Shown one piece after another: positions 8,114 to 18,857 of a DNA stretch of 25,965 nucleotides. Position numbers and translations under genes: made by a program. Numbering within the stretch: position 1 is the stretch's first letter; every line of letters starts with the position of its first letter. Origin of the DNA: a virus; IMG/VR virus record IMGVR_UViG_3300031952_000123, positions 1 to 25,965 of that record. One strand, 5' to 3'. The notes below the pieces were generated by a model. The model searched no databases and was not told the origin of the DNA. It saw only the letters and a list, made by a program, of their open reading frames with translations.

Positions 8114-8195
8114 TTGGCCCGGAGGGACTCGAACCCCCACCTTCCGGTCGATATCGCGCGTTCGCCGGACATTCTCTACTTTAAGCTACGGGCCA
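8114..8195 (-). tRNA. tRNA-like gene, non-canonical D and anticodon arms
   Basis: 82 nt on the minus strand. Acceptor TGGCCCG pairs fully with CGGGCCA. T8 and A9 are present, and the T-arm GGGGG-TTCGAGT-CCCTC is canonical. A TCCGG/CCGGA stem sits in the anticodon position, but it encloses 17 bases instead of 7. The D-loop lacks the usual GG. No anticodon can be read with confidence; no CCA is encoded, and TTTTTT follows. It may be a degenerate tRNA, one with a short insertion, or a tRNA mimic. Confidence 0.6.
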
Positions 8196-8561: not shown

Positions 8562-9293
8562 TTATCCTTTTTTCGAGGAAAAATTGCTTTTGTGGTAGGG
8601 TTCTCCGCGCCCCATAGGCATCATCACGTGGATCGGTTCCCCGTCCAACACCACCGCCGCCGACAGGATGGGCTTATCATCCATCTCCCTACCGTACACG
8701 AACTGGAAGGCATCCATGTCTATCCCGCACCCTACATCCATCGCAAATACCCGCTCGTCCCAGTTCACACGCCACTTCACCCCGGCCCTACTGTGGCAGT
8801 GGCCCATGACCACGCTCTTGAGCATCTTGCCCGACTTGGTCCATGCCGGGTGAATCCCCCCTGACTTGGAACCATGGCAATAATACACGTTGTCGAATTT
8901 GAAGTGAAAACCCCAGGTCCAGGTAAGAGGCTTGATGCTCTTGTCCTTCTTCTCGTATCCCCACAACGTGTTATAGTTCAGCAAGGCCCGCTCCGGTATT
9001 CCCACGGTCTTAGCCAATCGCTGCGGCCTACAATCGTGGTTCCCGATACACACCATAGCATTAGGGAACGCCTTGTGCCACAGGTGAATCTTCTCACGGG
9101 TCTGTTCATACTCATCACCCGCCCCCGGACACTCAGGTTCCTTAGCGTGAAAACTAATCGCGTGCCAATCCACCACGTCCCCGATGAATACCACCGTATC
9201 ACACTTGTACTTCCTCCGCAGGTCTTGGCAGAACGCCAAGTATCCCGGATGCGTCACCGGCTCATGCAGGTCCCCGATCACCATTACACGCAT
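8562..9293 (-). CDS. calcineurin-like metallophosphoesterase
   Basis: 243 residues. The motifs of the dinuclear-metal phosphoesterase fold appear in order: GDLH (residues 7-10), GDVVDWH (38-44), GNHD (84-87) and GHCHS (164-168). Phage members of this family hydrolyse phosphodiesters or phosphomonoesters (DNA, cyclic nucleotides or RNA ends); the substrate cannot be read. The ATG at 9293 has GGAGGTGGAG upstream and overlaps the previous gene's end. It is last in a unit of nucleotide-related genes (9996-8562). Confidence 0.85.
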   Translation of the reverse strand: MRVMVIGDLHEPVTHPGYLAFCQDLRRKYKCDTVVFIGDVVDWHAISFHAKEPECPGAGDEYEQTREKIHLWHKAFPNAMVCIGNHDCRPQRLAKTVGIPERALLNYNTLWGYEKKDKSIKPLTWTWGFHFKFDNVYYCHGSKSGGIHPAWTKSGKMLKSVVMGHCHSRAGVKWRVNWDERVFAMDVGCGIDMDAFQFVYGREMDDKPILSAAVVLDGEPIHVMMPMGRGEPYHKSNFSSKKG

Positions 9294-9634: not shown

Positions 9635-9996
9635 TACTTATCCTCCGCAGATTTGATGATTTCGTGCAGGCACCCCATAGCGTTGAATATAATGGCGCAC
9701 AGGGTATCCTCGGCTATCACTTTACCATGATTGTCAAACTCTTCATAGCCCTGTTGGATCAACCAATAGGCTATCGCGTGACGAATGAGACTATCTAAGT
9801 ACGTCTCAACCGGAATCCCCTTTTTCCAGTTATCAAATTCCCTTCTCGATCCATCTGGCAAGGTCCTGTGCTGATCGAGGTACTGCACGTATCTCCGCAG
9901 CACAATTGGAGAGAGTGCCTTGACGTAGGACAACTTCCCTTGCACCGTATCTCTCGTGGCCCCCCCGCCGAACGTCCTAATCTGTTCATCTGCCAT
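9634..9996 (-). CDS. DUF5664-type dATP/dGTP diphosphohydrolase-like protein
   Basis: 120 residues. The N-terminal TFGGGATRDTVQGKLSY, followed by LSPIVLRRYVQYLDQHR, DNWKKGIPVETYLDSLIRHAIAYW and a final EDTLCAIIFNAMGCLHEIIK, matches the phage family annotated as dATP/dGTP diphosphohydrolase (DUF5664). It would hydrolyse purine dNTPs to monophosphates. It overlaps both neighbours (ATG within the preceding gene's end; TAATG at its own end). The pair with the deoxyribosyltransferase-like gene suggests nucleotide-pool control. Confidence 0.75.
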   Translation of the reverse strand: MADEQIRTFGGGATRDTVQGKLSYVKALSPIVLRRYVQYLDQHRTLPDGSRREFDNWKKGIPVETYLDSLIRHAIAYWLIQQGYEEFDNHGKVIAEDTLCAIIFNAMGCLHEIIKSAEDK

Positions 9997-10426
9997 CTTC
10001 TATTCCTTTCCTACCAAGCATTACATCCCCTGACAACAGGGGAATCTTCACGTAGAAAACGTCCCCATTCCGCATGAATATCCCGGTCGTTTCCACCTTC
10101 CGAGCCTCCGCAGTGGTCGGCCCCAGGATATCCCGGCTTACATAAGCCCGGAATCCCATAGGCATAGGGTAGATCGGTGCCCCCCCCAGCCACGTCACCC
10201 CCTCTCCACCCAGCATTGGGCAGTAAATAGCCATCTTGAGCACCGAGTCACTCTGCGGAGGATGATTGGCCGTTATGACCAGTGCCCCGCAGAACCCCAC
10301 GAATTGCTGCTTGACCAGTATGGGTGCCCCTCGTGGAAATATCCTCTGGCACAGAACGTAGTACCCCCTCGGTTTCCCCTTGACCACATGAGGGCACAAG
10401 CTAACTGGAATACGAATTGGCTCCAT
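9986..10426 (-). CDS. hypothetical protein, 146 aa
   Basis: Not recognised. The start is set at ATG 10426 (MEPIRIPVSLCPHVVKGKPRG), because the longer reading from 10492 would run through the tRNA-like T-arm and read typical tRNA-derived residues. No Shine-Dalgarno is visible, as the gene begins 3 bases after the RNA's 3' end; translation may depend on processing of the RNA. The sequence is beta-rich with many Gly and Pro, as in small capsid or fibre-associated proteins, but no motif supports that. Confidence 0.6.
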   Translation of the reverse strand: MEPIRIPVSLCPHVVKGKPRGYYVLCQRIFPRGAPILVKQQFVGFCGALVITANHPPQSDSVLKMAIYCPMLGGEGVTWLGGAPIYPMPMGFRAYVSRDILGPTTAEARKVETTGIFMRNGDVFYVKIPLLSGDVMLGRKGIEDGR

Positions 10427-10428
10427 AA

Positions 10429-10531
10429 AGTGCGGAGTAGGAGTCGAACCTACACCTCCAGGACTTATCGGCCATCTGATGTTTGCAACCATCTGATAGT
10501 TGCTCCTGGTGCTCTCCGAGAGCTTCCGCGC
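10429..10531 (-). tRNA. tRNA-like RNA 1 with 42-base anticodon-position loop
   Basis: Canonical T-arm GTAGG-TTCGACT-CCTAC and acceptor GCGCGGA/TCCGCAC (one mismatch). There is only one base between acceptor and D-stem, D-arm GCTC-TCGGA-GAGC with a 5-base loop, and then A26. The anticodon-position stem CCAGG/CCTGG encloses 42 bases and is followed by a 4-base variable loop (AGGT). The insert holds ATCAGATGG twice and an inner hairpin GCAACT/GGTTGC with loop ATCAGAT (CAG at anticodon place). Intron, pseudogene or mimic cannot be told apart by eye. Confidence 0.55.
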
Positions 10532-10536
10532 GTAAT

Positions 10537-10618
10537 CGCTCCAAGCGGGAATCGAACCCGCATCACCCGCTCTCGGCGGGGTCCTTCCTGGGGACGTAGC
10601 CCTTTAGACGATTGGAGC
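10537..10618 (-). tRNA. tRNA-like RNA 2
   Basis: 82 nt on the minus strand. Acceptor GCTCCAA/TTGGAGC is perfect; T8 is present and the T-arm GCGGG-TTCGATT-CCCGC is canonical. Between them are hairpins GTCC-CCAGGAA-GGAC and CCCGC-CGAGA-GCGGG, which could be anticodon arm and long variable arm. The anticodon would then be AGG with C instead of U at position 33, and the D-arm is poor. No CCA is encoded. Confidence 0.6.
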
Positions 10619-10622
10619 AACA

Positions 10623-10672
10623 GGGGGCGGGACAGGTCTTGAGCCTGAAAGTGGCCTGCACCACCCGCCCCC
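10623..10672 (-). ncRNA. compact structured RNA 3, 50 nt, armless-tRNA-like
   Basis: A perfect 9-bp terminal stem GGGGGCGGG/CCCGCCCCC closes two small hairpins: GTG-CAGGC-CAC and CAGG-CTCAAGA-CCTG. The second resembles a T-arm with C in place of T54. It begins 4 bases from RNA 2. The layout is that of a tRNA lacking the anticodon arm; alternatively it is a plain GC-rich hairpin. Confidence 0.4.
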
Positions 10673-10675
10673 ACA

Positions 10676-10732
10676 ACCCCGGCCCACCGGATAGCCAGCT
10701 ATTGCGAGGCGTTACGGATTTACGGCCGGGGT
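10676..10732 (-). ncRNA. compact structured RNA 4, 57 nt
   Basis: A perfect 9-bp stem ACCCCGGCC/GGCCGGGGT closes a 39-base interior with a small hairpin ATAG-CTGG-CTAT. It lies 3 bases from RNA 3. No T-arm is visible. It is the first element of the array in the direction of transcription, after the end of the SSB-like gene. In 10733-10755 I see nothing else. Confidence 0.35.
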
Positions 10733-10755: not shown

Positions 10756-11211
10756 CTACGGGGGGGTAGTATTGTCCCCCACCTGCACCGGAATAACCTC
10801 CTTCAAGCGGCAGTTGGTGTACTCCCTACCGTCCTTCTTGCTTGTGGTGGTGATGATCTCGACGTTCAGGATCGTCCCAACCGACTTCATCATTACGTCG
10901 TTGGCCAGTGCCAGGGAATCAATCGCGGCACCGTTGTTCAGCACCCGCGCGGTCTGCTTGAGAATCCCCAACTGCTTGGTGCTGTAGAACCCCGCGCTGA
11001 ACTCCTGCCCGTTCAGCTTGCCATCTTCGCGCTTCTCGATCCGTGCCGTCAACTTCCACCAACCCTGCGTACCCTCGAATACGCCCTTGTCGCACTTGAT
11101 AATGGTGACGATGTACTTGTCATCCGGAGGCATCCAATCTGAGAACTCCCGCGCGTCCTTGAAAGCTGCATTATGTTCCGCCAAAAGTTGTTCAAACCCC
11201 AAATCTGACAT
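10756..11211 (-). CDS. DUF669-like phage single-strand DNA-binding protein candidate
   Basis: 151 residues. The N-terminal MSDLGFEQLLAEHNAAF is followed by DKYIVTIIKCDKGVFEGTQGWWKLTARIEKREDGKLNGQEF, a beta-rich pattern, and KQTARVLNNG...VGTILNVEIITTTSKKDGREYTNCRLKEVIP, which looks like the repeated small-barrel arrangement of DUF669-type proteins. These are commonly found beside Sak4-type ATPases and are thought to bind single-stranded DNA. The Shine-Dalgarno GGAG lies 7 bases before ATG 11211. Directly downstream of the Sak4-like gene, which supports a recombination role. Confidence 0.6.
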   Translation of the reverse strand: MSDLGFEQLLAEHNAAFKDAREFSDWMPPDDKYIVTIIKCDKGVFEGTQGWWKLTARIEKREDGKLNGQEFSAGFYSTKQLGILKQTARVLNNGAAIDSLALANDVMMKSVGTILNVEIITTTSKKDGREYTNCRLKEVIPVQVGDNTTPP

Positions 11212-15721: not shown

Positions 15722-16263
15722 ACGTCATTCCCCCATACGTCCCATCCTTCTGTTTTCGTTCGTGCAAACAACTCTATTCGAGAAACGTCTCCGCAGAGTT
15801 GAACTATTCTATCTCGAATCTCCGAAGGCTTCTCCGAATGTCTTCCAATTCGAGCGTCACAAACTTGTAGAACACTTCTACTCTTTCTCAACGTCTGGCA
15901 ATGTCCTTTCGTCCCCAACAGACAAATCTCCGAGTTGGCCCTTGTGTAGTTCCCGCACCCTACGAAGTAGGAGTCCGATACCCTATTCCTCTTGATCCAT
16001 GTAAAGGCGCAAGTAGCATACTTGAATCCCCAAGCGTCAATTACCTTTAATCCAGAAGGAAGATTGGGAAACGTCACCCATAAAAACAGAAAACATGTTT
16101 CTTCCGACAAGGAAGGCACTGGTAGCTTCTGTATCCATTCTTCATCCTGTACTTCGTAGTGATTCGCCGGGCATTTCAGCCCACTACCGTTATTCCACCC
16201 CAATCCGTTCCACGGGGGATCAGCATAGATCACAGTGTATTTCCTGTCCGGGAATGGAATCAT
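15718..16263 (-). CDS. MT-A70-family DNA N6-adenine methyltransferase
   Basis: 181 residues. DPPW at residues 15-18 (YADPPWNG) is the catalytic motif of the MT-A70 family. FLFLWVTFPNLPSGLKVIDAWGFKYATCAFTWIK and the C-terminal ARIGRHSEKPSEIRDRIVQLCG-RIELFART follow in the usual order. It would add N6-methyl to adenine in phage or host DNA. The start has AAAGGAAAGAGAC upstream and overlaps the polymerase stop. The target sequence is not readable; CTCCGCAG (with its single A) is one candidate, untested. Confidence 0.85.
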   Translation of the reverse strand: MIPFPDRKYTVIYADPPWNGLGWNNGSGLKCPANHYEVQDEEWIQKLPVPSLSEETCFLFLWVTFPNLPSGLKVIDAWGFKYATCAFTWIKRNRVSDSYFVGCGNYTRANSEICLLGTKGHCQTLRKSRSVLQVCDARIGRHSEKPSEIRDRIVQLCGDVSRIELFARTKTEGWDVWGNDV

Positions 16264-18857
16264 GTCTCTTTCCTTTCATAATCCCACGGCACTGTTCTTC
16301 CCACCCACCTCGAAAACACTTCGAGCAGGGGGGGATGTTTCATACAGTCGCCCATGATCGCGTCCACTCGTTCTCCCTCCGCAGGGTAAGTGTCCACAAA
16401 CAGAGCGTCGTAGATTTGCAGGCATATCACACTGCGGAGGTTTGCTTCCATGAAACGTGCTTGGGCCCGGTACTGGACTGAGTGCAGCAGTTGGGCGCAG
16501 GGGGTCTGGTGGAGGAAGTTGCATATTTCCCCCCCCTTTCCAGCCGTACACCCGACCCCGAACGTCCTGGACCATCCGGTGGGCAGAACAAGATACCCCT
16601 GTCTACCGGCCAAGGCTATCATCTCATCTTGCCACGCCTTGTATACGTGGTGTTTGGCATACCACGTCTTGATCGCCCGATCACAGAACTCAATATCGAC
16701 CTCGATTCCCGCGTCTCTCCGGGCCGTGCTCTGAAAGGCGTCGGCCCCCCCACGGAACAGGACGAGGAAATTGAGCGTCTTCCCCAGTGCGTACTTCACC
16801 GGCTCCCGCTTCTTGAACCCCACCGGGTTCTCGTTGGGGAACAGCGTCAAGGCGGTTCGAGTATGGATGCTCTCCCCTTCTTTCGTATAGGCTTCCATGA
16901 GCAGGGGGTCGCCAGACAGCAACGCTGCCATCCGTAGATGATCTTGGTTCACGTCGTACTCAACGATCTTCCCCCCCGGCCATCGGGAGCACGAGCAATC
17001 ACGTATGCTGTGTGGCTCCGTCTGCCGGGCGGGTTTCTTGCACGAGAACCGTCCCTGAATCTGACCCCCGCTCTTGACATCCGAACTTCCCCCCCGCTCC
17101 GAGTACATAGGAATTGCGTACCACGTCGGATAGACCATCCCCACGTCCCCGGTGTGTGGCATAATCCCCTTCCGAGGATCGATCAGGAGCGGACCCGTGT
17201 AAGTAGAAACGAGTTTGGATCGTTCCTTGTAGTCCTGGAACATCGCAATAAGTTGCTTGTTCTTTCCCTCCGGAATATGTTCCAAGATGAGATTGACGTT
17301 CTCGACCCCTATCGAAATCTTCTTTGTCTTCCCCGTCCACTCCACTCGGCTGTCTTCCAACAACCCTGCTTCTCGCAGGCAGTCGAGTAGGAGTTGTCTC
17401 AGGGGAGCATCTGATCCGGTCCCGCAAAGTTTGATCTCGTGGTCCGTCTCTGCGGAGGTCAAGAGATTTTGGCATCGGATGGTCTCTTCCTCATGGAAAG
17501 CCTGTAGCTTGGCGACGTCAAATGAGCTACCCGTCTCTTCCAGGTAGAACGTATCCCACAGGATCATGTTCCGAGTCCAAGCGCAGGTCTTGCTCAACTT
17601 GGGAGAGTCGGGGCCGTATCGTTCCTTGATCCTCCGCAGGAGTTCCTCGTACAGGACGAGGGTAGCCGCCGCGTCAAGGCAGTTGTAGTAGTGTAAGTCC
17701 TTATCCCACGAGGACTTAGCATTACCAGACTTTCCGGTTACGTTAACTTCGGAATAGTCCGCGATCCCGAATAGCGTAGCCAATTCCTTGAGGCCCTTCT
17801 CCGGCTGCTGCTCATAGAGGAGGAAACTCAACAACAACGTGTCGTCCAGAGTTATTCGTCTTTGGTTAATCAGGAATGGAAGTATTGGGTCTTTTGACAA
17901 GTACAAATACAAGAGATCGAACTTGATATTCTGTCCAACCACCACAACCTTTTGTTCGTTAATCCGGTAAAACCATTCCCGTATCTGCTCTTTGTGATGG
18001 GGTTCAGACCACACATACTGCGCCGTCCTCAGTCTGTCCCCATCCCTCCATCCAAACGCTACGGAGACGATCTGGTCCTCGAACGGAACCCCGTCGATCT
18101 CCTTCGACTTGATCGGGTGGAACACCGTCTGTTCCTTACCCTCCAAGATTCCATAGGTCTCGATGTCCATTGTGACGAACGGGGGTAGAACCTGCGGAGG
18201 ATCAATCCCCACCTCCGGATCAATCTGCAACGCATTGGGGATTAACTCCCCCCGGAGGTAGCGAAGGATCAACGAGAAATGGGTTTCGACGGCGAATATT
18301 TTCCCCGGCTCCCGCAATGGGTGAAGCATAGCAGGATGGAACGTGCAAAACACACGAACCTTACCACCAAATACAGCACTCTTCTGACCCTGCTTCTTGA
18401 GGGCCGCACCCAATGAGGACAGGTGAAGGGCGGAATAGGCTGCCTTAGCTCCCAACGCCACGATAACGACCTCTTCATACATTCCTCCAAGTATAGCTAC
18501 GTCCTCTTGCAAGTACGGGAGGCACGCCCGGATATTGGACTGTGACTCGTCCGCCCCCTGCGGGGGTTTGCACCGGCAGGAATTGACCAAGTACACGTCA
18601 GCGTAGTCCGTCAGTCGCGACGCCCGGACCATCTTCTCCAACAACTGGCCGGTGAATCCAACGAACGACTTCCCTTTCATATCCTCTTGGTGCCCCGGAC
18701 TTTGGCCGGTAAATAAGATTGCTACGTTTTTTTGTAGTGGTTGTCCATCATAGAGACTTCTTGTGGGTAGTCCGGGATTCCTTGCCGATTGGTACAATGG
18801 GCATAGTTTACAATCTGAATGTGATTCAAACGTCAGGCTGCCCACAAATAGCCCCAT
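16260..18857 (-). CDS. family-4 uracil-DNA glycosylase fused to 3'-5' exonuclease and PolA-type DNA polymerase
   Basis: 865 residues. Residues 1-205 form a family-4 UDG domain: iron-sulfur Cys C16, C19, C94/C96 and C112, motif GQSPG (51-55; normally GEAPG, so Glu is Gln) and HPAML (174-178). A DnaQ-type exonuclease follows: DIE (231-233), NIKFD (310-314), YNCLD (391-395). The polymerase has motif A DVNQDHLR (D634), motif B KTLNF (K693, F697) and motif C QIYDALF (D817). Catalytic Asp, Lys and Phe remain, but motif A Glu is His (640), motif B Arg is Tyr (689) and motif C HDE is YDA. This is the main replicative polymerase of the phage. UDG-PolA fusions are known in SPO1-like phages. Confidence 0.88.
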   Translation of the reverse strand: MGLFVGSLTFESHSDCKLCPLYQSARNPGLPTRSLYDGQPLQKNVAILFTGQSPGHQEDMKGKSFVGFTGQLLEKMVRASRLTDYADVYLVNSCRCKPPQGADESQSNIRACLPYLQEDVAILGGMYEEVVIVALGAKAAYSALHLSSLGAALKKQGQKSAVFGGKVRVFCTFHPAMLHPLREPGKIFAVETHFSLILRYLRGELIPNALQIDPEVGIDPPQVLPPFVTMDIETYGILEGKEQTVFHPIKSKEIDGVPFEDQIVSVAFGWRDGDRLRTAQYVWSEPHHKEQIREWFYRINEQKVVVVGQNIKFDLLYLYLSKDPILPFLINQRRITLDDTLLLSFLLYEQQPEKGLKELATLFGIADYSEVNVTGKSGNAKSSWDKDLHYYNCLDAAATLVLYEELLRRIKERYGPDSPKLSKTCAWTRNMILWDTFYLEETGSSFDVAKLQAFHEEETIRCQNLLTSAETDHEIKLCGTGSDAPLRQLLLDCLREAGLLEDSRVEWTGKTKKISIGVENVNLILEHIPEGKNKQLIAMFQDYKERSKLVSTYTGPLLIDPRKGIMPHTGDVGMVYPTWYAIPMYSERGGSSDVKSGGQIQGRFSCKKPARQTEPHSIRDCSCSRWPGGKIVEYDVNQDHLRMAALLSGDPLLMEAYTKEGESIHTRTALTLFPNENPVGFKKREPVKYALGKTLNFLVLFRGGADAFQSTARRDAGIEVDIEFCDRAIKTWYAKHHVYKAWQDEMIALAGRQGYLVLPTGWSRTFGVGCTAGKGGEICNFLHQTPCAQLLHSVQYRAQARFMEANLRSVICLQIYDALFVDTYPAEGERVDAIMGDCMKHPPLLEVFSRWVGRTVPWDYERKET

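Follow-up and report, generated by a model that had tools for sequence, protein, structure and literature searches.

Tandem tRNA-like and stem-closed RNA modules in a conserved slot behind the single-stranded-DNA-binding protein gene of a phage lineage

Four compact RNA modules, here called M1 to M4, lie in tandem between the gene of a single-stranded-DNA-binding protein (SSB) and the next gene of a viral replication operon, and the analysis supports the view that two of them, M3 and M4, are tRNA-derived and non-decoding. A tRNA-like architecture, a non-canonical middle, a conserved slot, covarying stems and an exact junction with the following start codon were directly observed. As an explanation we favour, tentatively and short of calling it probable, that the array is processing punctuation after the SSB gene; its cleavage, the enzymes and the effects on the messages are what we infer.

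The window, which is the whole stretch of DNA that was analysed, is a single viral record from IMG/VR, 25,965 bases long. Its genes are mostly on the minus strand and resemble a tailed-phage replication module with a DNA polymerase A protein, a PD-(D/E)XK exonuclease, a Sak4-like AAA protein and the SSB. The DNA polymerase A protein (16260-18857, minus strand) has an N-terminal uracil-DNA-glycosylase domain, and an ORF at 8958-11597 of contig L093 looks related to it. The OB-fold SSB gene (10756..11211, minus strand) is located directly upstream of the array, with 23 nt between its stop codon and M1. Its assignment is based on phrog_378 'single strand DNA binding protein', which was matched by 9 of the 18 family members; the AlphaFold model had a pLDDT of 83 and its Foldseek matches were the PrgE ssDNA-binding protein and SSBs. 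Downstream of the array follows the gene of the 'PIxIPIS' protein (9986..10426, minus strand, 146 aa), which is conserved in synteny and gave no family and no fold match in the family and structure searches. In the INPHARED phage collection no relatives were found for the array region, the AAA protein or the PIxIPIS protein, and the relatives of the polymerase there were all below 30% identity. A host search by genome scan gave two weak matches, and the one inspected (L059) resembles an unrelated ATPase.

The window also contains an iterated 9-mer, CCTCCGCAG, with 34 copies in 26 kb on both strands, where 0.35 are expected and 100 shuffles gave a maximum of 2. The copies have no conserved flanks and are found, for example, at 9213-9221 (plus), 10253-10261 (minus), 12474 (plus) and 16376 (plus). 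In nine related phages the core CTCCGCAG has 17-66 copies per contig. Three others have two copies at most, and their top 8-mers are the variants CCTCTGCAGA, CCCCGCAG and CCCTGCAG. CCTCCGCAG resembles a recognition site of the Chi type or a similar one, iterated and specific to the lineage.

The array occupies positions 10429-10732 of the minus strand. As the first-pass annotation had proposed, it consists of four stem-closed modules, with closing stems of 9, 9, 7 and 7 bp for M1, M2, M3 and M4, respectively. The spacing of 3-5 bases that it had given holds for the first two gaps (3 and 4 nt), and the third is 5-6 nt. M1 (10676..10732, minus strand) is closed by the perfect 9-bp stem ACCCCGGCC/GGCCGGGGT around a 39-nt interior, and M2 (10623..10672, minus strand) by the perfect 9-bp stem GGGGGCGGG/CCCGCCCCC around a 32-nt interior. 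Both are without a T arm, and their fold z-scores are -2.6 and -3.2. M2 can alternatively be folded into a D-like and an anticodon-like hairpin with the 7-nt loop CTCAAGA (U33, CAA), at -23.5 vs -30.0 kcal/mol for its best fold. This 50-base form had been taken for a tRNA lacking its anticodon arm; it is the T arm that is missing instead. A reading of M1 and M2 as T-armless tRNAs was dropped, because the best folds are single long stems. Individually these two modules are less striking (the window has 7 perfect stems that are 9 bp or longer and enclose loops of 20-60 nt, vs 2-5 in shuffles), and the weaker case for them is that they are tandem, adjacent and located in the slot downstream of SSB.

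M3 (10537..10618, minus strand) has the perfect 7-bp acceptor GCTCCAA/TTGGAGC and the T arm GCGGG-TTCGATT-CCCGC, together with a long variable arm, CCCGC-CGAGA-GCGGG. Its canonical anticodon arm is missing, as a 4-bp stem carries the loop CCAGGAA with C33 in place of U33. M4 (10429..10531, minus strand) has the acceptor GCGCGGA/TCCGCAC, with one C-A mismatch, and the T arm GTAGG-TTCGACT-CCTAC. A single base (A) separates the acceptor from the D arm GCTC-TCGGA-GAGC with its 5-nt loop, and the anticodon region is a 42-nt loop on the stem CCAGG/CCTGG, with G at position 33 and a whole middle of 71 nt. The repeat that had been noticed in this loop proved to be a 17-nt tandem duplication (10470..10503, minus strand; GCAACTATCAGATGGTT / GCAAACATCAGATGGCC), identified by the repeat search and in the sequence. 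An alternative hairpin of M4, GCAAC-T-ATCAGAT-G-GTTGC, would place U33 and CAG in a 7-nt loop, and the fold that is forced to contain it lies 1.6 kcal/mol above the minimum. The textbook T arms and acceptor stems and the abnormal D and anticodon regions described at first sight are therefore both present in these two modules. An anticodon arm with a 5-bp stem, a 7-nt loop and U33 was absent from M3 and was found in M4 only in the alternative fold.

When the tRNA finders were run, M3 was the only module of the array that was recognised. ARAGORN called it a tRNA-Pro(agg) of an odd, class-II-like form that lacks U33. The Rfam tRNA model (RF00005) scored it at 34.6 bits, above the gathering threshold of 29 bits. 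M4, M1 and M2 gave no match with ARAGORN or Rfam tRNA. The window has no canonical tRNA, and neither program reported a tmRNA. A search of the window and ten related loci with Rfam at permissive thresholds returned nothing credible except tRNA.

The SSB-downstream slot was compared among about 18 viral contigs collected from IMG/VR by AAA-protein searches, many of them 50-57 kb long. The gene order AAA/Sak4 - SSB - slot - PIxIPIS is conserved in most of these relatives at AAA identities of 39-68%, and the slot is usually structured. An element with acceptor and T arm is present in the window (two copies) and in L002, L004, L009, L011 and L014. The only normal tRNA in these slots is the tRNA-His of L002. 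L009 has a tRNA with a shrunken anticodon arm and a 36-nt middle, and its D-arm start and T arm are those of the L002 tRNA-His. In L014, L011 and L004 the acceptor and T arm hold a small insert of 35, 26 and 22-25 nt, respectively, and the L004 and L011 elements are shrunk to about 57 nt. In L007 (L007:9608-9757) a tRNA-like piece with a T arm and another hairpin are nested in a 15-bp closing stem, and in L008, L012, L013 and L014 the slot contains a module closed by the AATGCTGGCG... stem. Within IMG/VR the AGGATAG-acceptor element was found in this group only, and so was the AATGCTGGCG module, bar apparent chance matches in coding sequence. Where the AATGCTGGCG...CGCCAGCATT stem occurred beyond the group, the inspected cases lay inside long coding frames and were put down to chance. 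Across all elements the length of the middle varies between 22 and 95 nt; in most relatives it is 22-37 nt, which is too short for a normal anticodon arm.

These lengths weigh on the question whether M3 and M4 could still function as tRNAs, with an anticodon arm that is unusual or contains an intron. Even with M3 accepted by ARAGORN and Rfam and the U33/CAG hairpin of M4 so close to the minimum, we regard this as very improbable, given the C33 and the 4-bp stem of M3, the middle of M4 that is 71 nt in any reading, and the short middles of the relatives. The intron-bearing tRNAs suggested by the first-pass annotation were not supported either, because Rfam matched no group I intron (the M4 insert exceeds a normal loop by only 35 nt), G33 in M4 counts against an archaeal-type bulge-helix-bulge tRNA intron, and the middles of the relatives are mostly too short. 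Its list of readings was in the right neighbourhood, namely tRNA-derived and non-decoding, but it was without the conservation of the slot and the parallel to T4 and T5.

The frequency of such elements was compared with chance in 510 kb of this virus group by a scan script that required a 5-bp T stem with the loop TTCRANY inside a 7-bp acceptor. The scan gave 10 matches, vs 0, 1, 0, 1 and 1 in five dinucleotide-shuffle sets. Three of the matches fall in the window, at M3, M4 and 8114-8195, and the match at L081 3223, which does not look like a tRNA, is probably the expected chance match. When further contigs were scanned more loosely, one convincing case was added, at L093 6955-7080, along with several unconvincing ones. 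These results caution that tRNA finders probably overlook most elements of this kind in viral metagenomes.

Outside the slot, a fifth tRNA-like RNA of the window (8114..8195, minus strand) has a perfect acceptor and T arm, a 17-nt anticodon loop and T6 after it, and scored 40.9 bits with Rfam tRNA. It is preceded by a terminator-like hairpin. This copy and one at L069 13486 are the two in the group that lie outside the slot, and the L093 element, which in G019 precedes the AAA gene by about 9.7 kb, is a third. The latter is a 127-nt RNA with a perfect acceptor and T arm, a 95-nt middle and a fold z-score of -2.9. It is contained in a structured and apparently non-coding stretch of about 550 nt (L093:6890-7440; G019 26890-27440), for which no Rfam family was matched.

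The relatives also provided the covariation check. Across ten elements 97.5% of the cells in the acceptor and T stems were paired, and 9 of 12 pairs had two-sided changes; the scan had required pairing, so the pairing figure is somewhat overstated and the covariation partly follows from the selection, but the shuffle count is without this bias. The stem covariation was 0.81; shuffling lowered it to 0.23, and sliding left no more than 0.18. A canonical anticodon arm was found in 1-2 of the ten elements vs 25 of 32 scan matches in T4/T5 tRNA regions (Fisher p 0.0002-0.002, which is only indicative because the samples are small and the elements related). Judged from sequence, the elements keep the processing half of a tRNA and lose the decoding half. 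An attP-style tRNA 3'-half for integration was ruled out, since the elements also have the 5' strand of the acceptor, and this strand covaries.

The same data bear on neutral decay of tRNA genes, which had been listed among the early readings. It would fit the normal tRNA-His that is still in the slot of L002, the L009 element that shares its D-arm start and T arm, and the tandem duplication in M4, which looks fresh. Simple decay is nevertheless disfavoured and in our view decidedly unlikely, because the middle is lost and yet the acceptor and T stems stay paired, covarying by two-sided changes, in relatives so distant that their AAA proteins share about 45-50% identity. The loss hits the same side of the molecule, its decoding part, every time. 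Phage genomes are also compact and tend to shed unused DNA.

The free length of the middle on a chassis that is kept would be expected if the elements were trans-acting stable small RNAs, with the outer half for maturation and stability and the variable middle as the working part. Such a middle might bind a host protein, antagonise a defence or act as a decoy for tRNA-targeting enzymes. In line with this, T4 RNAC and RNAD were detected by Northern blot (PMC9697503), and phage tRNAs counter tRNA-depleting defences (PMC11555353). Of the decoys proposed at first, one for anticodon-cleaving defence is possible, but decoys of anticodon nucleases are expected to keep the anticodon loop, which is the very part that most of the elements have lost. 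The middle is not conserved among the relatives. The best antisense pairing of the M4, 8114-8195 and M2 loops with the phage genome was within the range of shuffled loops, which for M4 and 8114-8195 argues against a target in the phage itself. Since the conserved slot and the start-codon junction are also left unexplained, we consider a trans-acting role unlikely.

Several slots lack the T-arm element altogether, namely those of L008, L012, L013, L015 and L016. Terminator-like hairpins, most with T runs, are found in the slot of L008, L012, L015, L042 and L054, and short T runs end the L004, L009, L011 and L014 elements. Together with the long closing stems of M1, M2 and the AATGCTGGCG modules, which are without a T arm, this could mean that only the stems matter, as protectors of the mRNA 3' end or terminator-like hairpins behind SSB, and that the likeness to tRNA is incidental ancestry. 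Such a role for the stems alone appears distinctly unlikely, as it does not explain why the exact T loop (TTCRANY) and the 5-bp T stem are retained, and no T runs follow M1-M3 in the window.

The array abuts the start codon of the PIxIPIS gene, where the discriminator T of M4 is followed by TT and the ATG (10424..10429, minus strand; ATG at 10426). The close start and the missing ribosome site given in the first-pass annotation were confirmed. An identical T73-TT-ATG junction was found in the window, L004 and L009, with stem letters in the window that are unlike those of the other two; the junction may be common to the three by descent rather than by selection. No Shine-Dalgarno-like site precedes the gene in any of them, and 50-65% of the long ORFs have a site by the same test. 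Such a site was also absent from this gene in L007, L008 and L013, which have no abutting element. An open frame runs through the 3' half of M4 into the PIxIPIS gene (10424-10492, minus strand; MVANIRWPISPGGVGSTPTPHF-MEPIRIP), and the T-arm reading frame is likewise open in L004 and L009. An N-terminally extended downstream protein is therefore a minor alternative.

Processing punctuation is favoured because of the T-TT-ATG junction, the minihelix formed by acceptor and T arm, and the cleavage precedents in the T4 SSB mRNA. In the proposed mechanism a tRNA gene would once have followed the SSB gene, in front of the gene that comes next, and its decoding domain would have been lost or overwritten, whereas the acceptor stem and T arm would have been kept because host tRNA-processing enzymes read that half. 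The present array would be transcribed within the phage replication operon as non-decoding tRNA-derived and stem-closed RNAs. A cut by RNase P at the 5' end of an element would release the SSB message, and a cut by the 3' tRNA-end nuclease at or near the discriminator would let the message of the next gene begin with UUAUG. The array would then punctuate the operon, separating the messages on its two sides and stabilising them to different degrees; the stable RNAs cut out of it would be by-products or else a second product. Against this stands that recognition by RNase P is not predicted for M1 and M2, because they have no T arm. The mismatch near the end of the M4 acceptor stem could weaken the RNase P cleavage, and the tRNA-like form is not essential, because five of the slots are without a T-arm element. 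The copies outside the slot, and the lack of a Shine-Dalgarno-like site in relatives that have no abutting element, also count against it. That the lineage uses stripped outer halves of tRNAs as processing marks, with a cut after SSB and a leaderless next message, is a broader claim that we hold to be somewhat unlikely.

For RNase P, a minihelix of acceptor, T stem and T loop (AT1) is a model substrate, and the natural substrates include the T4 gene 32 (SSB) mRNA, the phage "M3 RNA" and the P1/P7 C4 RNA (PMC11143913). RNase E also cuts the T4 gene 32 mRNA, right at the end of the coding sequence (PMC3014915). M3 and M4 resemble these substrates in the acceptor/T-arm minihelix and in the SSB mRNA, with the cleavage being predicted here. 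To our knowledge, no tRNA-like module is located at the end of T4 gene 32. In mitochondria, tRNA structures between genes direct the processing of the mRNAs; these tRNAs also decode, whereas decoding seems to be lost in the window array.

The closest parallels, known for decades, are the tRNA-like stable RNAs of T4 and T5. A scan of the same type on T4 and T5 recovered annotated small stable or tRNA-like RNAs, namely rnaC of T4 and RNA1 and RNA2 of T5. These three, whose annotated function is unknown, are among the matches without a canonical anticodon arm and are also outside Rfam tRNA. Like M3 and M4, T4 rnaC has an acceptor (CGGAACG/CGTTTCG) and a T arm (CCGGG-TTCGAAT-CCCGG) around a non-tRNA middle of 60 nt, and it lies a few bases from the neighbouring RNA, as do the modules of the window with their gaps of 3-6 nt. 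T4 rnaD, which with rnaC makes up the species 1 and 2 RNAs, gave no T-arm match, like M1 and M2. The T4 RNAs differ in their place, which is the end of a tRNA cluster, and in their length of 119-139 nt, compared to 50-103 nt in the window, whereas the window array is found in a replication operon behind SSB, abuts a start codon and has no cluster of working tRNAs. The roles of RNAC and RNAD were stated as unknown in papers of 2010 and 2022 (PMC3014915, PMC9697503).

In T5, RNA1, RNA2 and RNA3 are tRNA-like stable RNAs. RNA1 and RNA2 (middles of 53 and 89 nt) resemble M3 and M4 with an acceptor, a T arm and an abnormal middle, and RNAI, RNAIII, RNAIV and RNA2H resemble M1 and M2 with closing stems and no T-arm match, so that T5 shows the same mix of RNAs with and without a T arm as M1-M4. 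The T5 RNAs differ in being located among many working tRNA genes, and the annotation of that stretch shows no link to SSB or a start codon. Since the scan recovers rnaC, RNA1 and RNA2, the array is best filed, by its architecture and packing, as a compact variant of these RNAs. The T4/T5-type architecture recurs here smaller, without a tRNA cluster, fixed behind SSB and sometimes set against a start codon. If processing marks of this kind do exist, they might also explain why T4 and T5 keep their tRNA-like stable RNAs, and the old question about these RNAs becomes a single idea open to testing, namely that the outer half of a tRNA may serve as a processing mark in phage messages.
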